A stretch of DNA of 45,343 nt, from positions 1-45,343 of the forward strand of contig JABWAK010000010.1 of the NCBI GenBank assembly GCA_013361065.1, read 5' to 3'. A model generated the notes under the pieces. It was not told where the DNA came from. It saw only the letters and a list, made by a program, of their open reading frames with translations, and did no database searches. Shown here piece after piece: positions 2,169 through 45,343 of the stretch; within the stretch, counting starts at the first letter, position 1; every line of letters starts with the position of its first letter. The position numbers and the translations under genes were made by a program. Source of the DNA: Bacteroidota bacterium. Its GTDB lineage: Bacteria; Bacteroidota; Ignavibacteria; UBA10030; UBA8401.

Positions 2169-2495
2169 TCAGCGCCGGACCGGCAGACGGCGGAGCATCC
2201 AACTCAGCATCCCGCCGGAGAGATCGCCGATGTTCGTGTAGCCTGCTTCGGCGAACTGACGGGCGGCGGCGGCGGACCGGGCACCGGTCTGGCAGACGAT
2301 GATGATGAGTGCTTCCCGGTCGGGAGGGGTGTGCTGCAGGAACTGTGCGATCCCCTGCTGCGCGATGGAGATCGAACCGTCGATCCAGCCGAAGGATGAC
2401 CGCTCGTTCTCCGTCCGCACATCGATGATGAGCGGACGAGGTTCCGCAGCGTTCATGGCGGAGAGTTCATTGGGGGAAACGGAACGGACAGGCAT
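2169..2495 (-). CDS. Rhodanese-like domain protein, cytosolic
   Basis: Single-domain rhodanese of 108 aa with no signal peptide or membrane segment, so probably cytosolic. LIIDVRTENE marks the start of the fold, and the six-residue active-site loop after the catalytic cysteine reads CQTGARS. Rhodaneses carry sulfane sulfur as a cysteine persulfide. It is the last gene of the nine-gene minus-strand redox/sulfur operon, 12 bp after the DUF302 gene. Substrate and partner cannot be read from the sequence; persulfide relay with the neighbouring thioredoxin and OsmC proteins is an inference. Its ATG has only a weak ribosome-binding site, consistent with translational coupling. Confidence 0.9.
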   Translation of the reverse strand: MPVRSVSPNELSAMNAAEPRPLIIDVRTENERSSFGWIDGSISIAQQGIAQFLQHTPPDREALIIIVCQTGARSAAAARQFAEAGYTNIGDLSGGMLSWMLRRLPVRR

Positions 2496-2507: not shown

Positions 2508-2891
2508 TCAGAGTGCGGCGATGACGTTGCGAAGGCGCTGCTGCACATCGCGGGAGAGGGTGTGCAGTGCGTCGTTCGGGATGACGGCATCGATCACGGA
2601 GGGATCGAACGCGGAAACGGTGACACCCGCTCCGTCCTCATACACGATCACATTGCAGGGAAGGAAGAGTCCGATCTCCTGCTCGGCCTTCAGCGCATTG
2701 TTGGCGAACTGCGGGTTGCAGGCGCCGAGGATGGTGTAGCGTCCGATCTCCACGCCGAGCTTCTTGTGCAGCGTCTCCTTCATGTCGATGGACGTCAGCA
2801 CGCCGAACCCTTCCTTCTTCAGTTCCTCGGTGACCCGTTCGACCGCTTGTTCGAAGGAATAGGAGGTCGTCGTACGTATTCCGTACTGCAT
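2508..2891 (-). CDS. DUF302 domain protein
   Basis: This 127-aa protein matches the DUF302 family, recognised from the pattern FEQAVERVTEELKKEGFGV, then GRYTILGACNPQFANNAL, GLFLPCNVIVYE and a C-terminal helix. DUF302 proteins are small alpha/beta proteins of unknown biochemical function, often next to rhodaneses and sulfur-carrier genes, as here. Two cysteines (in GACNP and LPCNV) are family-typical. The ORF track begins 30 codons upstream; the ATG at 2891 is preferred because the family N-terminus begins there and the extension overlaps osmC. It lies 26 bp downstream of the osmC-like gene in the same operon. Confidence 0.85.
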   Translation of the reverse strand: MQYGIRTTTSYSFEQAVERVTEELKKEGFGVLTSIDMKETLHKKLGVEIGRYTILGACNPQFANNALKAEQEIGLFLPCNVIVYEDGAGVTVSAFDPSVIDAVIPNDALHTLSRDVQQRLRNVIAAL

Positions 2892-2917: not shown

Positions 2918-3379
2918 TCATTCGATGATGATGGTCGGCTCCACGGTGACCGTGGCAGTGATGGAGTTGCCGATCAGGCAATGATCATGAGCAGTGTGCA
3001 CCAAGCCGTCGACCTGTTCTTTCGTCCAGCCGCTGCCGACGGTGATGACCGGACGGATGGTGATAGAGGTGAACCGGTAGTTCCCGTCCACGAACTCGAG
3101 CGTCCCTTCGGCAGCGCTCACGTAGGAGCGGAGCGGCAGTTCCTTCCGTGCACCGAAGGATAGGAAGGTGGACATCTGACAGATCTCAACGGCGGCAACG
3201 AACAAATCCTCCGGTGTCCAGACACCCGGGATCCCTTTGAATTCCGGCGGACTGGAGACCTCGAGCTGCGGTTTACCGTCGGCGCGCAGCGTGCCCTGAC
3301 GGTCCGACGTCCACGCCACGTTGGTGTGATAGGTGAAACTCTTATACTTTTTGATCGGCTGCTGTGGAGTCTGTTCCAT
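2918..3379 (-). CDS. OsmC family protein
   Basis: OsmC/Ohr-superfamily protein, 153 aa. Family proteins reduce organic hydroperoxides through a pair of reactive cysteines and protect thiols. The visible OsmC features are PEDLFVAAVEICQMSTFL, carrying the first cysteine, and HDHCLIGNSI, carrying the second. The start at 3379 is preferred over the longer ORF because GGAAGGGA lies just upstream. It overlaps the end of the DUF6132 gene by 38 bp, showing tight operon packing. Its presence beside thioredoxin and rhodaneses under an RsrA-like regulator fits a thiol or peroxide stress response. The exact substrate is unknown; it could equally act on sulfane sulfur. Confidence 0.88.
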   Translation of the reverse strand: MEQTPQQPIKKYKSFTYHTNVAWTSDRQGTLRADGKPQLEVSSPPEFKGIPGVWTPEDLFVAAVEICQMSTFLSFGARKELPLRSYVSAAEGTLEFVDGNYRFTSITIRPVITVGSGWTKEQVDGLVHTAHDHCLIGNSITATVTVEPTIIIE

Positions 3380-3590
3380 TGTCGTTCCCTTCCGTCGTCC
3401 GTTTCTTCCCGTCGATGAGCAGCGCTGCTGCCGCCATGCCGTACAGGGTGGAGATGTACGGGTTGCTGGTGATGGCACAGGTGCCGTTGACGCAGCCGAT
3501 ATAATAGTAGTAAGTGTATCCGGCGATCCCGCCGAGCACGGCAGCGATACCGCGTTTCTGCCAGACGTTCAGCCGCTTCAGTAATTCCAT
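3342..3590 (-). CDS. DUF6132 small membrane protein
   Basis: An 82-aa protein resembling DUF6132, recognised by YYYYIGCVNGTCAITSNPY followed by a hydrophobic segment. Two membrane spans are visible (about residues 14-32 and 45-62), with the Cys pair GCVNGTC between them. The function is unknown. In Bacteroidota such genes commonly accompany rhodanese and YgaP-like genes, exactly as here. The start overlaps the membrane rhodanese stop by 13 bp, and the 3' end overlaps the osmC start. Confidence 0.8.
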   Translation of the reverse strand: MELLKRLNVWQKRGIAAVLGGIAGYTYYYYIGCVNGTCAITSNPYISTLYGMAAAALLIDGKKRTTEGNDNGTDSTAADQKV

Positions 3591-4357: not shown

Positions 4358-4597
4358 TCAATTGACGGCGCACGAACCGCCGCAGCAGCTTCCGCTGCCG
4401 CAGCTGTCGGCGGATGATGTGGATGATGCAGAGGAGGAACCGTACCCGCTCATGGACATTCCGGTCAGCGACATCAGCCGCTGATGGGAGGGTGAGCCGC
4501 AAGCGGGACAGATGACATCGCTTTCCACCTCACGGACTTTATGGAAGATCTCGTACTGGCCGCTGCATTCCGTGCAGCGGTACTCATAGGTCGGCAT
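4358..4597 (-). CDS. FmdB-type zinc ribbon protein
   Basis: A 79-aa FmdB-family zinc ribbon. The start MPTYEYRCTECSGQYE and the second knuckle CPACGSPSHQRLMS give two CxxC pairs for one zinc. The C-terminus is a low-complexity Ser/Gly tail ending CGSGSCCGGSCAVN, rich in cysteine. FmdB proteins are widespread putative regulatory or metal-binding proteins without an established general function. It sits between thioredoxin (14 bp) and the exported rhodanese (1 bp). The Cys-rich tail could bind metal or respond to redox state, which is inference. Confidence 0.9.
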   Translation of the reverse strand: MPTYEYRCTECSGQYEIFHKVREVESDVICPACGSPSHQRLMSLTGMSMSGYGSSSASSTSSADSCGSGSCCGGSCAVN

Positions 4598-4611: not shown

Positions 4612-4986
4612 TTACGACAGTGTGATGATCTTCTTGGCGAGCAGGTTCTCGTTGATCACTTTCACAAGCTCGTTCTTCGGCAGTGCGCCGGCCGCCATCA
4701 TCGGTTTCCCTTCCTTCGGGATGAAGAGCAGGGAGGGGATGGAGCGGATGCCGAACACACCGGCCAGTTCCTGTTCCTCGTCCGTATTCACTTTATAGAA
4801 CTGCACCTGTCCTTTCATCTCCTCGGAGAGCTCATCGATGATCGGGCTGAGGAACCGGCACGGTCCGCACCACGGGGCCCAGAAATCGACCACCGCGGGG
4901 AGTTCCCCGTCGTACTTCCATTCCTTATGCAGTTCGTAGTTGAAGACCTTCGCTTTGAAGGTATCGTTCGTGAGTACTTCTGTCAT
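4612..4986 (-). CDS. Thioredoxin family protein
   Basis: A 124-aa thioredoxin with active site WAPWCGPCRFL and the cis-proline in IRSIPSLLF. It lacks a signal peptide, so it should act in the cytosol, reducing protein disulfides with electrons from thioredoxin reductase (not in the window). It has a slightly longer N-terminal helix (about 10 residues) than E. coli TrxA. It lies in the operon preceded by the ECF-type promoter at 5292-5322, which parallels the SigR-RsrA control of thioredoxin in actinomycetes. Confidence 0.95.
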   Translation of the reverse strand: MTEVLTNDTFKAKVFNYELHKEWKYDGELPAVVDFWAPWCGPCRFLSPIIDELSEEMKGQVQFYKVNTDEEQELAGVFGIRSIPSLLFIPKEGKPMMAAGALPKNELVKVINENLLAKKIITLS

Positions 4987-5029: not shown

Positions 5030-5236
5030 CTATTTCAATTTCTCCGTTTCGATCTTCGCATTGGTGTTCACGCCGAGCACGTGCCAGATGGGGCAGTACC
5101 GCATGAATCCGGTCGCGACGAAGATGAGTCCTGCATATGCCCAGGGAGTTTCCGGACCCCAGAATGCCAGGGAGGTGACGAACAGCCCGAGGGCGATGCG
5201 GATGGGACGTTCGACGGAGCCGATGTTGTTCTTCAT
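5030..5236 (-). CDS. DUF2892 (YgaP-like) inner membrane protein
   Basis: A 68-aa membrane protein matching DUF2892, the membrane module found fused to rhodanese in E. coli YgaP. It starts MKNNIGSVERPIRIALG, has two hydrophobic helices, and carries the typical YCPIWHVLGV near the C-terminus. Here the module is encoded separately from, but in the same operon as, three rhodaneses. It is the first gene of the operon after the 5292-5322 promoter, with a leader of about 50 nt. The function is probably a membrane anchor or transport partner for sulfur chemistry, an inference from YgaP. Confidence 0.88.
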   Translation of the reverse strand: MKNNIGSVERPIRIALGLFVTSLAFWGPETPWAYAGLIFVATGFMRYCPIWHVLGVNTNAKIETEKLK

Positions 5237-5291: not shown

Positions 5292-5322
5292 ATAGGATGC
5301 AGCGGTCCGGTAAAAGGATTCA
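5292..5322 (-). promoter_or_regulatory. Putative ECF promoter of the redox/sulfur operon
   Basis: On the minus strand, TGAATCCTTTT, 12 bp, then CATCCTAT. The same two blocks with identical spacing lie immediately before the ECF sigma gene (6200-6230). The TGA of the -35 block is also the stop codon of the anti-sigma gene. The repeated motif strongly suggests recognition by the adjacent sigma factor. Confidence 0.75.
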
Positions 5323-5607
5323 GCGGGCGGAGGATTTTTTCTGTCCGTCCAGCTTGATCACGGCGAACAGCTTATGGCGGCTCCTAGAGGGGAGCTTGGG
5401 AGCAGGGTATTTCTTATAGAGGAAAACCGTCTTTTTGAGCGAATCCAGTAAAGCGGAGCAGTTGGTGCACCCCTTGATATGCGCCTTGATCCGCCGGCAG
5501 GAGGCGGAGTCCAGCTTCGCATCCATGTTCTCGCACAGGTGTTCATACACCTTCCCGCAGGAGAGGGTGTGGACATGGATCTTGGTATGGGGTTGGGTCC
5601 GTTTCAT
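5320..5607 (-). CDS. Zinc-binding anti-sigma factor, RsrA-like (ZAS)
   Basis: A 95-aa soluble protein without membrane segments. It has the zinc anti-sigma signature H43-x3-C47-x2-C50 (HIKGCTNC), and C17 lies 26 residues before H43, the same spacing as the zinc ligands C11/H37/C41/C44 of RsrA. Extra cysteines C25 and C37 could take part in disulfide switching. In the RsrA family, oxidation expels zinc and releases the sigma factor. The gene overlaps the sigma gene by 4 nt, the usual sigma/anti-sigma coupling. The C-terminal half is basic and unlike RsrA, and overall similarity to known anti-sigmas is low, so the redox-sensing role is inferred from the ligands and the operon content. Confidence 0.82.
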   Translation of the reverse strand: MKRTQPHTKIHVHTLSCGKVYEHLCENMDAKLDSASCRRIKAHIKGCTNCSALLDSLKKTVFLYKKYPAPKLPSRSRHKLFAVIKLDGQKKSSAR

Positions 5608-6197
5608 GCTGCCATCAGGTCGTGTAATTTATGCCGCAGGAAGATCCGGGAGCGGCGCAGCCGGGATTTCACCGCCGGCACGGAGAGTTTCAGGATCTTC
5701 GCTGTTTCTTCGGCCGTCCGGTCCTCCAGGTCCCGCAGGACGAACACCACGCGGTACTCGTCCGGAAGTTCCTGGATCGCTTCATCCATCCGTGCACGCA
5801 GTTCCTTGTTCATCACCGTGTGGATGGGGGAATCGTCCCATGCCGCGAGCTGTTTCTGTACGGATTCGTTCTCCGGATCCGGCGCTTCATCGTACGATTC
5901 CATCAGACCGTCCAGCTTCCGCTTCCGGCGGTGCATCAGACAGTTGTTCGCAACGATCGTATACAGCCAGGTGGAGAACTTGGCACGGGCATCGAACTGG
6001 CCGATCTTCCGGTAGACGTTGATGAAGGTATCCTGGAACGATTCCTCCGCCTTCTCCTTGTCCCGGCACAGTTTGAATGCGAATCCCCAGACGGTCTGCT
6101 CGTACCGTTTCACCAGTGCGGTGAACGCACGCTCATCCCCCTGTTTCACCCGGGAGATCAGTGCTGCGTCGGTCAGTGGTTCCGTCTGTTGCTTCAT
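5604..6197 (-). CDS. ECF RNA polymerase sigma factor
   Basis: A 197-aa sigma-70 family factor of the ECF type. Region 2 spans about residues 14-85 (VKQGDERAFTALVKRY through KFSTWLYTIVANNC), and region 4 spans about residues 135-190, ending in a helix-turn-helix (TAEETAKILKLSVPAVKSRLRRSR). There is no region 1 or 3. It is followed by an overlapping RsrA-like anti-sigma gene. The motif TGAATCCTTTT-12-CATCCTAT ends only 2 nt before the ATG, which implies autoregulation and a leaderless or very short-leader mRNA. Inferred targets are this pair and the thioredoxin/rhodanese/OsmC operon downstream. Confidence 0.95.
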   Translation of the reverse strand: MKQQTEPLTDAALISRVKQGDERAFTALVKRYEQTVWGFAFKLCRDKEKAEESFQDTFINVYRKIGQFDARAKFSTWLYTIVANNCLMHRRKRKLDGLMESYDEAPDPENESVQKQLAAWDDSPIHTVMNKELRARMDEAIQELPDEYRVVFVLRDLEDRTAEETAKILKLSVPAVKSRLRRSRIFLRHKLHDLMAA

Positions 6198-6199
6198 GG

Positions 6200-6230
6200 A
6201 TAGGATGCCGGTGGTCGGGAAAAGGATTCA
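6200..6230 (-). promoter_or_regulatory. Putative autoregulatory ECF promoter of the sigma gene
   Basis: TGAATCCTTTT-12 bp-CATCCTAT on the minus strand, identical in block sequence and spacing to 5292-5322. The -10 block ends 2 nt before the sigma ATG, so transcription would start at or next to the A of ATG. Confidence 0.7.
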
Positions 6231-6380: not shown

Positions 6381-7421
6381 ATGGATCGCCGCTCACTTCT
6401 TAAAAAACTACTGGTGACACCGCTGATGCTCCCGTCAATGACTGCTTTCGGACAGTCCGGATCATCCCTTCCGCAGCATCACGGCGAGAACGGGTTCATC
6501 AATACCGACCCCGATTTCGCCGAGGCCGGTTTCTCGGAGATGGCGCCGTGGATCCTGAAGAAACTGCCGGGCACGTTCGCGGACGGGGAGAAGGCGGAGA
6601 TCGCGCGCGAGGTGAACGACGGTACGCTCATTGGCAGCGGCAAGCCGTACACCGCCACATGGATCGGTCACTCCACCGTGCTGGTGCAGATGGAAGGGAA
6701 GACCTTCCTCACCGATCCGGTCTGGTCCTCGCGTGTCGGTCCGTTCAAATGGGCCGGCTCGCCCCGCATCTCCGAGCCGGGCATGCCGATCGAGAAACTC
6801 CCTCCCATCGATTTCATCCTGATCTCCCATAACCATTACGACCACCTGGACGAAGCGAGCATCGAAGAACTGGTCGACCGGAATCCGAACGTGAAGTTCT
6901 TCGTACCGCTGCGGGTGCGCGACTGGTTCGAAGAGCGCGGCATCCGGTCGGTGGAGGAACTCGACTGGTGGGAAGGGGCATCGTTCGGGGGACTGAAGAT
7001 CGTCTGCACTCCGGCGCAGCATTTCTCCGGCCGCTGGCTGGGGGACCGGAATCAGACCCTCTGGTGCTCGTGGAGCGTCCTGGGAACGAAGCGGCTCTAT
7101 TTTGCCGGCGACTCCGGATACTGCTCCCATTTTGCGAACATCGGCAAGCGGTTCGGTCCGTTCGATCTCACGCTCATCCCTATCGGCGCCTATGAACCGC
7201 GGAAACTGATGCGTCCTGTTCACATGGACCCGGCGGAAGCACTGATGACCCATAGGGATGTGCGCGGGAGGAAGCTGCTCGGTATCCACTGGGGCACGTT
7301 CATCCTGACCGACGAACCGGCGGACGATCCGCCGAAACGGATGTACGAAGCTGCCGCCCGGATGCAGCTGCCCAAGGATGATCTCTGGGCGCTGAAACTG
7401 GGCGAAAGCAGGGAATGGTGA
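6381..7421 (+). CDS. MBL-fold metallohydrolase (UlaG/NAPE-PLD-like), exported
   Basis: A 346-aa metallo-beta-lactamase-fold hydrolase. The metal-binding motif H150-N-H152-Y-D154-H155 is present, followed by further ligand candidates in PAQHFSGRW, FAGDSGY and IHWGTF. The pattern TATWIGHSTVLVQMEG...LTDPVWS and the WWE segment resemble the NAPE-phospholipase D/UlaG-like branch, so a phosphodiester or lactone substrate is likely but not known. The N-terminus MDRRSLLKKLLVTPLMLPSMTAFG resembles a signal peptide with a twin-arginine start, suggesting export. It is divergent from the ECF sigma gene and has no clear Shine-Dalgarno sequence. It is followed by a strong hairpin at 7432-7460. Confidence 0.88.
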   Translation: MDRRSLLKKLLVTPLMLPSMTAFGQSGSSLPQHHGENGFINTDPDFAEAGFSEMAPWILKKLPGTFADGEKAEIAREVNDGTLIGSGKPYTATWIGHSTVLVQMEGKTFLTDPVWSSRVGPFKWAGSPRISEPGMPIEKLPPIDFILISHNHYDHLDEASIEELVDRNPNVKFFVPLRVRDWFEERGIRSVEELDWWEGASFGGLKIVCTPAQHFSGRWLGDRNQTLWCSWSVLGTKRLYFAGDSGYCSHFANIGKRFGPFDLTLIPIGAYEPRKLMRPVHMDPAEALMTHRDVRGRKLLGIHWGTFILTDEPADDPPKRMYEAAARMQLPKDDLWALKLGESREW

Positions 7422-40479: not shown

Positions 40480-41709
40480 TTACAAATAGTCTAAAGAAAA
40501 GTAATAAAGGTACTGCGAACTTGTAAAGGAGGCCAACAACTGATAATTATCATTTTTATGATCATCTGCAAAATCACAAACACTTTTTATTGAAAATGCA
40601 ATTGGTTTAGGTCTTGTGCAATTCTCAGATGCAAAATATACGCCATAAGTTTCCATTTCAAGACCCAAAACCTTTCTGCTTTGATGCTGTAAGCGGTTTA
40701 TTATTTTTTTGTTCTGAATAACTGCAGAGCCAGATGCAACAGGACCAACATGAACCGATATTCTTACCGCAACTCCAGATTTTTGCATCCATGAATTCTG
40801 AATATCATCAAGATATTTTCTGTTTCCAGATAATTCAATAAACCTTTCCTTAATGCTGCTATCAAGAGGGATGTATTTTGGATCAGGCAAAAAACTATTT
40901 TCCAATTCCCCGGATACTAATTTCCCGCTATTATAGTCCCAGGTCAAATCAGCGATTAGGATATCACCATAATTGACTCCGGAATCTTTCACTCCAGCAC
41001 AAATACCTATGTTTATAATGTATTTTGGTCGATACTTTGAAATGATTTTCATTGATAGTACAGCGGCGGATGTCATCCCCATCTGGGGTGTAGTTGCAAC
41101 TACTACTTTCAGCCGTTTCTCTCCTCTACTAAAAATTCCGGTGTAAAAGATAGTCGAATCATTCGAATGATTGTTCTCTATCCAATTAGCAGGTAAAGCC
41201 AAAATAGATTCAAGTTCGGGGCTTCTTAAAGCAGTGACAATACCTAAATCAAACAGGTAAGTGTTATCATGACTATCACGAAGAGATTTCTTTGAATTGA
41301 CTAAATACTGAAGCTTTGTCGTTAACACTTTTTGCCAATTATTATTTGTATCATCATATTTTAATATTCTCCAAATTTCTTTGGAAAAAAACTCATCTTC
41401 GGAGTCAATTATGCTGGAATATTCAGTTAAGCCTATGATGTGAAATGGTTTATATAATGAATTGCTTGATTTAAGTTCACGAATAAATTCGGCACCTGCG
41501 GATTTTCTGATCTCATCACCTTCGCGATTTGGCAAGTATAAATCTAGTATTAATAAATCAAAATATTTATTATGTAATAGCTCGCGCGCTCCCGTTAGGT
41601 CAACTGCGATAGAAATATTTTCTCTGACTATATCAGAATTATTTAATATTGCGGAAACGATTTTTTCTACTTTGCGAGAATTATCATCCACAATTATAAT
41701 GCTTATCAT
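40480..41709 (-). CDS. dtcC: Detocs-type effector: receiver domain fused to nucleoside phosphorylase-fold (ATP nucleosidase-like) domain
   Basis: A 409-aa fusion. Residues 1-125 are a response-regulator receiver: acidic pair D8-D9 (IIIVDDNS), phospho-acceptor D56 (LLILDLYLP), T96 (IIGLTEYSS) and K117 (LKYDD). Residues 150-409 are a nucleoside phosphorylase/MTAN-fold domain: FDLGIVTALRSPE, INIGICAGVKD with GDILIAD, the ribose-binding EME (E351-M-E353 in GLEMETYG) and catalytic-type D379 in SVCDFAD. In the Detocs defence family this domain cleaves ATP and dATP into adenine and ribose triphosphate when phage infects. Start 41709 overlaps the previous stop as ATGA; the ORF-track start at 41745 would intrude further into the receiver gene. 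AT-rich, foreign-looking codons. Confidence 0.82.
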   Translation of the reverse strand: MISIIIVDDNSRKVEKIVSAILNNSDIVRENISIAVDLTGARELLHNKYFDLLILDLYLPNREGDEIRKSAGAEFIRELKSSNSLYKPFHIIGLTEYSSIIDSEDEFFSKEIWRILKYDDTNNNWQKVLTTKLQYLVNSKKSLRDSHDNTYLFDLGIVTALRSPELESILALPANWIENNHSNDSTIFYTGIFSRGEKRLKVVVATTPQMGMTSAAVLSMKIISKYRPKYIINIGICAGVKDSGVNYGDILIADLTWDYNSGKLVSGELENSFLPDPKYIPLDSSIKERFIELSGNRKYLDDIQNSWMQKSGVAVRISVHVGPVASGSAVIQNKKIINRLQHQSRKVLGLEMETYGVYFASENCTRPKPIAFSIKSVCDFADDHKNDNYQLLASFTSSQYLYYFSLDYL

Positions 41710-42155
41710 AAAGACTCCATCTTCTGAAGTAACTTTTGCTTCCAATCCGACTGTGCAGGATTATAGTAAATTGTATCGATATAAAATTTGGGGAAATCCC
41801 TTTGCAACATTTGATTAAGTTCATCGAGGCTAATTCTTTCTTGTCCTTCTCCAAATGATTCAAACTGTGTAATAATTATAGTACTTGTAAAAACTGATTT
41901 TCGTTGCATTTCCATCATTATACTTCGACCAGCGAATGCATCAAAATAGTAACCATCTTCATTATCAGTAATGTCATATGTTGGTAAACTCATATCTAAA
42001 AGTAAAATATCCCAAGATTCCGATAAAAGGAACTTTAAGGCGGTTTGGTAAGACTTTACATGTTTAAACTCTAATGAACTTAAGGATGTAATTAAAAATG
42101 CACTAATTCTATCATATTTGTTTTGATCATCTTCGGCTATCAAAATCTTTTTCAT
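41706..42155 (-). CDS. dtcB: Stand-alone receiver domain protein (Detocs DtcB-like)
   Basis: A 149-aa single-domain receiver. The acidic pocket (E8-D9-D10 in LIAEDDQ) and the phospho-acceptor D54 (LLLDMSLP) are present, and T96 (IIITQF) is conserved. The lysine that normally follows at the next strand is missing; the segment reads IYYNPAQSDW. In Detocs the stand-alone receiver is thought to act as a phosphate buffer that prevents effector activation without infection; a changed switch pocket would fit a sink rather than an output regulator. It begins 29 nt inside the kinase gene and ends in a 4-nt ATGA overlap with the effector gene. Confidence 0.82.
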   Translation of the reverse strand: MKKILIAEDDQNKYDRISAFLITSLSSLEFKHVKSYQTALKFLLSESWDILLLDMSLPTYDITDNEDGYYFDAFAGRSIMMEMQRKSVFTSTIIITQFESFGEGQERISLDELNQMLQRDFPKFYIDTIYYNPAQSDWKQKLLQKMESL

Positions 42156-45100
42156 ATAATAGCCCTTTCTTATTTAGTTTTATAGTTAGTCTAAATACAT
42201 TTTCGGTGGGATAAGAAAAGAAAAATTTGTAATCATCAATTTTTAAATCGTATTTAATAATCTTACTGATTTTAGGTAAACCAGTGCCACCTTCTTTGCT
42301 AATAGAGTTTAGTGATACTCCTGATTGAAGCTCTTTAAGACGATTAGAGAGAATTGCAACAGGATCTTTTGAGCGCACCTCGGGTGATATTAGATTATCA
42401 AAACTTAGAGTAAAATACTGTGCATCAAAATGAGTTTTGATATATATATCATTTTTTTTTGCATCAACTCCAGAATGTTTTATAATATTTTCAAGTAAAG
42501 TTCGGAGAATGTCAGCAAAATGGGGCAACATATCTCCATTGATAATAATATTTGACTTAGAGTCAATTTTGGGTGAAATGGGAGAAAGTGAATGAAGATT
42601 ATTAATACTAGATACACAAACCGCGACTAATTCATTAAAATTAAACTGGAAGGGGAGCGTTTTACCGGTAACGTAAAACCAACGTGAAAGCTTATCAATT
42701 TCAATTTGAACGCTTGTCATGCAGATCGTTATGTTGCTTAAAAGTTCAGGCACATCATTATTTGGCAAAAGTAGTTTAATATCATTGTACAGATTGGTTA
42801 ACAAATCATACAACTCTTTCTGCAATTTAGTATTTAAGTATTCTCGGATTTTCTGGAGATTTTCATTGGTTCTTTTCCATAGCACTTGGAAAATATTATC
42901 AATAAAGCTTTCATAATTAGAAATATTTCGGAATGAAAATGTGTATATGCCTAACAAATCAAAATCTTCATAACTATAATCAAACAATCCATCAGGATTT
43001 CGATCTTCTGTCTTAATTTGCAGTAATGTATCTTTTAAGAAAAAAGTAATGTTGTCTATTCGCTCCGAAAATGATTTAAGCTTTTCTTGTACTTGATCCT
43101 TAATAATCTGAGGCTTATATGATAATTTCTCGTTCCAATAAGGATTTGATGTATAAAATTTGGTTTCACTATCAATTTGAGAAATTAAATTAAGCCGTTC
43201 AAATGTGTTTCGAATATGTCCTTGCAAGGTTCCATGTCGAATGCGAACAGAAAGATAAGAGTCTAAACCGTACTCATTGCTTGAAATAAAACGATCTCTG
43301 ATGTCAAAAAACAAGTCTCTAAAAGCTGCATTTAGAGAGATAAACAGTACTTGAAAATCATTATTGCTATCATCTTTTTTTGACTTAAGTGATAAAAACA
43401 TCGTTTTGGTATCCATGATTCGAAATTCTTCAGCACCCTTGTGTGTAGAATATTCTATATATCGAAGATAATTTTCTTTAATTATCTTTTCTCCGGTTCG
43501 CTTTATTCCTTCCTCGTCAACATATATCTTGCTCTCATCAATTTGCCGAACGGTTTGTCTTACCAAGAGTTTTGTATTTATAGACTCAATTTCTTTTAAG
43601 TAGTCTTCCTTGTTCACGGCGTCTAGAACTATTAAGTGTTGACAAATGGCGACTCTTTCTTGCTCTAAAGATATTGTATTTGAAAATTGATATGACGATC
43701 GCATTACATTTAGTGTGCAAATATGCCTTAAAAAATGCAGCATTAATGTCTTATCAAAAATTGCACCCGACGAAATTAATTGCAAGGGTGTTTTTGATTT
43801 ATTTGCATTGAGAAAATTATCGTAAGCAACATAAGTCATTCTATTTTCTTGATGTACGATCGAGTAAATAATTGGTATTTCAATATGCCGCATTAAATCA
43901 TTTCCCAGATTATTTTCAATCTCGGTGATTAATGACTTTAAATCAAAATATTTAACCGAAGCAGCATCAACCAAGTAATGTGAAACGGCAAATTGTGCTG
44001 CTTCTAATATTTTGCCGGTAAAAAGGTAACAACGAAATAGTTTTGGAAGAATATTCTCTAAAAATGGGTATGCCTTGTCTTTCTTTATTTGCAATTCGCT
44101 ATATAATTTATGAAACAGTATGAGAGAATCGGAAAAATTCGATTTCCTAAATTGTGAAATGGCTTTATAGTATGTGCTTCTTGATGGATCAATCTCGGGC
44201 GCGAAAACAATGTCTACATTTGATGAACATAAGCGAATAAAGTCTTCTGTAAATTTAATTGTTAAGCGATGGTGAAAATGATCAACAATTGATTCAATTA
44301 ATTGCAATTGTTTTTCACTGGACTGATGGAAGAAAGCAATTGAGGGGTTTAAGAAATGACAATTTAATTTTGTCAACAGTCGAAGATGATTGACAGCCTT
44401 TCCGTTTTTATTATTAATTATTTTTTTGAGCATCATGCCACTTGCAGTATCGTCTAGCAGCAGCGCTGTTTTATAAATAATTTCTCTCTGTTCTGATCCA
44501 ACAATTTGTCCCTTTGTTTTATTATCTAAGTACGTAAGTATGATATCTGCAAAAGAGCCATCAGGGAAAAGGTGATTATAAGTTTTACTTAAAATCACTG
44601 CCGATTTTATATAAATGTCATACAGTTCAATGATTTCTGGATAATCTTTTAGTAATAATTCACATTTAGAATAGCATGACTCATATCGTCCTGCAGTATA
44701 TTCATCAAGAATATCTAAAAAGGGTTCGCTTTGTTCGGCAAATTGAGTATCAACCCGGCAATTAATTATACATGATAAATTGTAGCACTCAGCTGATTTT
44801 AATTTCTTTGTTCCTAGCAACACATAATCATTAAACCATTCAGGTGGATCCTTCTCTAAAGACAGTTGATGCGCAACGCGGACAAAAGTTAAGTATCGAT
44901 CAATAATTGAATATTTTGAAGATTCAAATAAGATGAAAGGAAGGGATTCAATATTAGGAAGGCTTTCGTTTGCGTTTAGTACGAAACCTAAATAATCTTT
45001 TAGAACGATATCAGTTTGGGGTAATTCAAGCATTTTGCTAAGCTTAATGTTATAATTCTCATAGGAGATTTGTTTTTCGCTTCTAAGCTTAAAAAAATTT

Positions 45101-45343
45101 GAAAAAAAACGTACAAATTGGTCTATTTGTTGTATCCCGTTAATTTCATTAAGTATTTTTGAACTTGCCTCTAAACCTCCCCTAAATTCTTCTACAAGGA
45201 GCATATTCCGAATGCCCCAGATTGAGTACCCATAATCCGCTTGTATTTGCTCCAATGATTGTTTTGCTTCATCAAATTTCCCAAGCATGATTTGTTTGTC
45301 AAAGTGTATTTTCTTTTGAAGAAACGTGTTTATTTCTGTGGAA
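42127..45343 (-). CDS. dtcA: Detocs-type sensor kinase: TPR-like region plus HATPase domain (5'-partial)
   Basis: At least 1072 residues; the frame stays open past the ATG at 45288 to the window edge (upstream codons read STEINTFLQKKIHFDKQI), so the true N-terminus lies outside. The N-terminal about 450 residues are helical with TPR-like blocks (GKFDEAKQSLEQIQADYG; RYESCYSKCELLLKDYPE). A middle region contains RIRHGTLQGHIRNTFE (about 682-696 by ORF numbering). The C-terminus is a GHKL ATPase: N-box LLENIIKHSG (931-940) and G2-box GGTGLPKI; the G1 box is degenerate (FDNLIS, without DxGxG). No canonical H-E/D-x-x-T/P phospho-acceptor box is seen before the ATPase. It likely senses infection through the TPR part and phosphorylates both receivers. 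Confidence 0.82.
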   Translation of the reverse strand, partial: STEINTFLQKKIHFDKQIMLGKFDEAKQSLEQIQADYGYSIWGIRNMLLVEEFRGGLEASSKILNEINGIQQIDQFVRFFSNFFKLRSEKQISYENYNIKLSKMLELPQTDIVLKDYLGFVLNANESLPNIESLPFILFESSKYSIIDRYLTFVRVAHQLSLEKDPPEWFNDYVLLGTKKLKSAECYNLSCIINCRVDTQFAEQSEPFLDILDEYTAGRYESCYSKCELLLKDYPEIIELYDIYIKSAVILSKTYNHLFPDGSFADIILTYLDNKTKGQIVGSEQREIIYKTALLLDDTASGMMLKKIINNKNGKAVNHLRLLTKLNCHFLNPSIAFFHQSSEKQLQLIESIVDHFHHRLTIKFTEDFIRLCSSNVDIVFAPEIDPSRSTYYKAISQFRKSNFSDSLILFHKLYSELQIKKDKAYPFLENILPKLFRCYLFTGKILEAAQFAVSHYLVDAASVKYFDLKSLITEIENNLGNDLMRHIEIPIIYSIVHQENRMTYVAYDNFLNANKSKTPLQLISSGAIFDKTLMLHFLRHICTLNVMRSSYQFSNTISLEQERVAICQHLIVLDAVNKEDYLKEIESINTKLLVRQTVRQIDESKIYVDEEGIKRTGEKIIKENYLRYIEYSTHKGAEEFRIMDTKTMFLSLKSKKDDSNNDFQVLFISLNAAFRDLFFDIRDRFISSNEYGLDSYLSVRIRHGTLQGHIRNTFERLNLISQIDSETKFYTSNPYWNEKLSYKPQIIKDQVQEKLKSFSERIDNITFFLKDTLLQIKTEDRNPDGLFDYSYEDFDLLGIYTFSFRNISNYESFIDNIFQVLWKRTNENLQKIREYLNTKLQKELYDLLTNLYNDIKLLLPNNDVPELLSNITICMTSVQIEIDKLSRWFYVTGKTLPFQFNFNELVAVCVSSINNLHSLSPISPKIDSKSNIIINGDMLPHFADILRTLLENIIKHSGVDAKKNDIYIKTHFDAQYFTLSFDNLISPEVRSKDPVAILSNRLKELQSGVSLNSISKEGGTGLPKISKIIKYDLKIDDYKFFFSYPTENVFRLTIKLNKKGLLYEKDFDSRR

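Follow-up and report, generated by a model that had tools for sequence, protein, structure and literature searches.

A predicted autoregulated ECF sigma/zinc-binding anti-sigma switch for thiol and sulfane-sulfur homeostasis in Ignavibacteria-related bacteria

Overview

Analysis of a 45,343-nt contig of a Bacteroidota bacterium (JABWAK010000010.1; "the window" throughout), together with its relatives, indicates that thiol and sulfane-sulfur homeostasis is very probably controlled by an autoregulated switch made of an ECF sigma factor and a zinc-binding anti-sigma factor. According to the mechanism we propose, the small soluble anti-sigma factor would hold the sigma factor, as long as the cell is reduced, via a fold organised by Zn(Cys17,His43,Cys47,Cys50). 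Oxidation or persulfidation of the anti-sigma cysteines, perhaps with the aid of Cys25 and Cys37, would expel the zinc and free the sigma factor, which would then drive the promoter of its own gene (P1), the promoter (P2) of an operon encoding DUF2892, thioredoxin, FmdB, two rhodaneses, DUF6132, OsmC, DUF302 and a further rhodanese, and, elsewhere in the genome, the genes for a CoA-disulfide reductase and a TonB receptor. The gene products would reduce or move reactive sulfur, so that the anti-sigma fold could re-form and the loop be closed. The P1 transcript would start at the sigma ATG, i.e. be leaderless, which may keep sigma synthesis low relative to that of the anti-sigma factor.

Our literature search found no paper that links an ECF sigma factor to persulfide or rhodanese in a matching way, and no description of a regulon with defined promoter and targets for this largely uncultured class. 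The analysis provides such a regulon, as a prediction, for a little-studied, Ignavibacteria-related group. It suggests that RsrA-like redox wiring exists on a SigW-like sigma factor outside Actinobacteria, and that a sigma factor, in place of a repressor, governs thioredoxin together with sulfane-sulfur enzymes. The system is also a clean natural case in which to ask why redox sigma factors have odd translation starts.

The promoter motif in the window and in its own genome

The motif TGAATCCTTTT-N12-CATCCTAT is present in the window as two exact copies, both on the minus strand, one 5' of the sigma gene and the other at the head of the thiol/sulfur operon (Table 1). A scan of the window that tolerated up to 3 mismatches revealed no third copy (0.01 expected from shuffles), while a scan of the 3.81 Mb genome recovered the same two exact copies and a single 3-mismatch site 5' of the TonB-receptor gene. 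The initial annotation was thus right that the motif occurs exactly twice with equal spacing; the 12-bp spacing itself is identical at both copies in the window, but relatives use 11 or 12 bp, so the exact value is not essential. The placement of P2 before the operon also stands, with the correction that this copy overlaps the end of the anti-sigma gene: bases 1-3 of P2 (5320-5322) double as the anti-sigma stop codon, and the same sharing of a TGA between the stop codon and the operon -35 element TGAATCC is seen in about 12 of 18 family genomes.

Two variant sites in the same genome are probably real as well, judging by the genes behind them and by their counterparts in relatives, although by mismatch count alone neither stands out. 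The site TGAATCCAATT-...-GCATCTTA lies 46 bp 5' of the CoA-disulfide reductase gene and is orthologous to sites in five relatives; it was chosen from relaxed scans (yielding 16 and 7 sites) by its gene and these relatives. The site GGGACCCTTTT-...-GCATCCTAT precedes the TonB receptor gene and has a counterpart before a similar gene in G009. Other relaxed-motif matches in this genome (up to 3 mismatches) fall mostly within reading frames and were dropped. Searches of the region for sigma-70-type promoters and terminators gave nothing above the shuffle level, and no Rfam families were detected there.

Table 1. Features of the sigma/anti-sigma locus and the adjoining operon (positions in the window)
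Feature	Positions	Strand	Basis or remark
Promoter P1, ECF sigma gene	6200..6230	-	exact TGAATCCTTTT-N12-CATCCTAT; place and sequence kept in relatives
Sigma start codon	6195..6197	-	6 nt after GCATC; predicted leaderless (0-2 nt leader)
ECF sigma factor, 197 aa	5604..6197	-	Pfam Sigma70_r2 and r4_2, NCBIfam sigma70-ECF
Soluble zinc-binding anti-sigma factor (putative zinc site), 95 aa	5320..5607	-	zf-HC2; invariant columns; ATGA overlap with sigma gene
Promoter P2, thiol/sulfur operon	5292..5322	-	exact motif; stop/-35 fusion also in relatives
DUF2892 (YgaP-like transmembrane domain) protein	5030..5236	-	PF11127, 65.6 bits
Thioredoxin	4612..4986	-	TIGR01068, 108.9 bits, above cutoff
FmdB-family zinc ribbon protein	4358..4597	-	TIGR02605, above cutoff
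Rhodanese A, N-terminal signal-like segment	3946..4356	-	PF00581; N-terminus read from sequence
Rhodanese B, N-terminal hydrophobic segment	3578..3949	-	PF00581; start set at ATGA overlap
DUF6132-like small membrane protein	3342..3590	-	weak PF19628 match, below cutoff; kept in relatives' operon
OsmC-family protein	2918..3379	-	PF02566
DUF302 protein	2508..2891	-	PF03625
Rhodanese C	2169..2495	-	NCBIfam rhodanese matches; at operon end in L058; probably the last operon gene

Conservation of the motif and of its targets

Both motif copies are kept in the family as TGAATC(C/T)TTTT-N-GCATC(A/C/T)TA, with 11 or 12 bases from TTT to GCATC. The form TGAAYCNTTT-N11/12-GCATC gave 44 sites in 22 family genomes (reversed control: 0) and, over the 98 genomes that represent the order, about 118 (reversed control: 2). 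A stricter form, applied to the other orders of the class (some 295 genomes), added 35 sites, and its control matched only twice across all 391 genomes. We inspected the DNA 3' of nearly all order-level sites and of most others. Far from being scattered at random, most order-level sites lie just 5' of the sigma gene or of thiol/sulfur genes; about 16-17 of the 118 fall within unrelated reading frames and are probably due to chance. On these grounds the motif is a real element with the look of a functional one.

The genes behind the sites encode the ECF sigma factor, DUF2892, thioredoxin, OsmC, FmdB with rhodanese, rhodanese and DUF302 proteins, and in addition thioredoxin reductase (four sites), CoA-disulfide reductase (five), an octaheme tetrathionate-reductase-family cytochrome (two), a type III sulfide:quinone reductase (SQR), a 1-Cys-type peroxiredoxin and QueG; glutaredoxin-like, DsbD-like and ferritin-like proteins were recognised from their translations only. 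By BLAST, 96 of 147 distinct sites could be tied to a reference set of target families, a count to be read with the fact that some of the others precede named target families outside that set. Behind the motif in L113 and L169 there is a conserved small protein (MKHFRVIFTML...) with no NCBIfam match, and two homologous-looking small proteins follow it in L088 (near 9282) and L090 (near 1073); in L090 the next gene resembles a short CxxC-type domain protein.

The two family genomes that lack close homologs of both proteins, G011 and G012, also lack motif sites, in favour of the proposed switch. In G004 and G005 all sites fall within reading frames, yet G004 still carries a sigma factor of 60% identity, the contig stopping just behind its gene. 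The sigma gene of many f2, f4 and f5 genomes has no motif promoter of its own. Conversely, OsmC, trx or FmdB genes are preceded by sites in G053 (99% complete) and other genomes where no close sigma or anti-sigma is detectable; the motif may be recognised by another sigma factor in these cases, or its copies may be relics. This last group is what speaks for a separate repressor or activator binding the motif in place of the ECF sigma factor. Such a regulator nevertheless seems very unlikely to us: the motif consists of two non-palindromic boxes at a nearly fixed distance typical for ECF -35 and -10 elements, it points towards the gene, it stands before the sigma gene itself and it keeps a fixed distance of 33-34 nt from the sigma start codon. 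We infer that the motif is read by the ECF sigma factor.

The sigma factor, the anti-sigma factor and the operon

The sigma protein has the composition of an ECF factor, with regions 2 and 4 only (PF04542, PF08281) and a TIGR02937 score of 109.1 bits against a cutoff of 42.9. The anti-sigma factor scores 23.0 bits with zf-HC2 (cutoff 22.2), and its translation contains no hydrophobic stretch resembling a membrane helix. It combines an HxxxCxxC motif and an upstream ligand with a position adjoining the sigma gene, which assigns it to the zinc-binding anti-sigma (ZAS) proteins with a putative zinc site. The ligands C17, H43, C47 and C50, correctly recognised earlier with the spacing found in RsrA, turned out to be invariant in our alignment, as are C25 and C37. 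This predicted ligand set is CHCC and not HHCC, as expected for RsrA-type redox sensing, since CHCC marks the ZAS proteins that sense redox changes through disulfides (PMC4960319). The AlphaFold model of the anti-sigma factor is of low confidence (pLDDT 62.6) and too uncertain for a fold search; its helices (17-27, 35-45, 50-66 and 74-83) fit the four of RsrA as far as such a model can be trusted.

The anti-sigma factor was found in 18 of 22 family genomes, and the gene order behind it is the same in most of these 18. The previously described succession of sigma factor, anti-sigma factor and DUF2892-thioredoxin-rhodanese-OsmC operon is as reported, and is now extended by FmdB, the second rhodanese, DUF6132, DUF302 and rhodanese C. 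In L067, L171 and several f5 genomes the operon contains a second anti-sigma-like protein, about 700 bp past the first and without a sigma factor of its own; the one from L067 lacks the equivalents of C25 and C37. Divergently from the sigma gene lies a gene of the metallo-beta-lactamase fold (window 6381-7421), whose place is kept in many relatives.

Relationship to SigR-RsrA and other systems

The initial annotation had noted that the layout mirrors SigR-RsrA, and the resemblance is borne out as analogy and not as orthology. As in SigR-RsrA of Streptomyces and in SigH-RshA, an ECF sigma factor is encoded next to a soluble CHCC zinc anti-sigma factor, the sigma gene itself stands behind a promoter of the regulon, and thioredoxin and thioredoxin reductase are among the targets; the reductase stands behind sites in four genomes and thioredoxin in many, while in the genome of the window only thioredoxin was seen. 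The spacing of C17/H43/C47/C50 is identical to that of C11/H37/C41/C44 in RsrA. By spacing, C37 matches C31 of RsrA, and C25 has no known counterpart there. Different from SigR-RsrA are the extra invariant C25, the rhodanese, DUF2892, DUF302 and FmdB targets and the leaderless sigma start. The SigR promoter is GGAAT-GTT; here we find TGAATC-GCATC.

Similarity searches place both proteins outside the SigR-RsrA families. The anti-sigma factor reaches 28.4 bits with the RsrA model TIGR03988 (cutoff 62.5), and its profile search finds RsiW before RsrA; the sigma factor is more similar to SigW (97 bits), the sigma-H/AlgU type (91) and RpoE (80) than to actinobacterial SigH (5zx2, 46). The pair thus seems to work like SigR-RsrA without being a member of that family. 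By sequence, the nearest solved relatives of the two proteins are SigW-RsiW of Bacillus; RsiW, however, is a membrane protein with an HHCC set and is blind to disulfide (PMC4960319), in contrast to the soluble CHCC protein described here. In its targets the regulon resembles the YgaVP, BigR and CstR/YrkD operons, where rhodaneses occur with a YgaP-like transmembrane domain (YgaP) or with thioredoxin (the YrkD cluster), yet those operons are controlled by ArsR- or CsoR-type repressors instead of an ECF sigma factor and a zinc anti-sigma factor.

The start of the sigma gene

P1 stops 2 nt short of the sigma ATG, which leaves essentially no 5' leader. Of 18 distinct sigma genes preceded by the strict motif, 17 have their start codon 6-7 nt after GCATC; the median distance among other targets is about 51 nt, a contrast drawn between related sequences, so that its p-value overstates the case. 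The position is held in several families and orders, with GTG replacing ATG in some genomes. Given the usual distance from a -10 element to the start site, the mRNA 5' end should coincide with the sigma start codon or lie no more than about 2 nt from it. The sigma mRNA therefore seems to be leaderless.

The alternative is that the sigma start is misannotated and that translation begins downstream, on an mRNA with an ordinary leader. In its favour is the rarity of leaderless genes in Bacteroidota, where they account for 5.5% of the mRNAs mapped in F. psychrophilum (PMC9723704) and where 1 of 37 genomes was flagged for them (PMC3160421). Against it are the constancy of the start position in 17 of the 18 genes, the exchange of ATG for GTG at that position in other families, the conserved reading frame and the lack of any conserved in-frame alternative start that we could see, and we consider a downstream start unlikely. 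If the leaderless start is accepted, both systems have an unusual sigma start: sigR of Streptomyces begins with GTC, which is repressed via IF3 and keeps SigR below RsrA (PMC5472188). The predicted leaderless start may serve a similar purpose.

The inducing signal

Taken together, the targets appear to lean to sulfane sulfur and persulfide as much as to disulfide stress. It is thus a serious possibility, which we hold just short of probable, that the motif is the promoter of this ECF sigma factor as proposed, but that the anti-sigma factor senses persulfide or polysulfide and the thioredoxins serve to reduce persulfides. We know of no earlier case of an anti-sigma factor sensing reactive sulfur species. 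The rhodaneses, CoA-disulfide reductase, type III SQR, octaheme tetrathionate-reductase-family cytochrome, DUF2892 and FmdB all fit such a signal; the combination of DUF2892 with rhodanese resembles YgaP, whose operon is regulated by sulfide through YgaV (PMC9774250), and a sulfane-sulfur cluster of B. licheniformis likewise couples rhodanese with thioredoxin (PMC9918477). On the other hand, the targets extend to trxB, peroxiredoxin and OsmC in some genomes, we noticed no ETHE1-like persulfide dioxygenase behind the motif, and disulfide stress is what the CHCC proteins characterised to date respond to. The switch proposed above accommodates either signal. Tentative, and on balance doubtful, is the broadest form of the proposal, in which a class-wide ECF sigma/CHCC anti-sigma pair would sense persulfide or polysulfide and in which the abutting promoter would yield a leaderless sigma mRNA whose translation limits the switch, as with SigR.

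Other genes in the window

Near the far end of the window, and judged from translations only, a receiver domain is apparently fused to a nucleoside-phosphorylase-like domain (40480-41745). The adjoining gene (42127-45288) encodes a very long protein whose C-terminal end is histidine-kinase-like, which makes for an unusual pairing.
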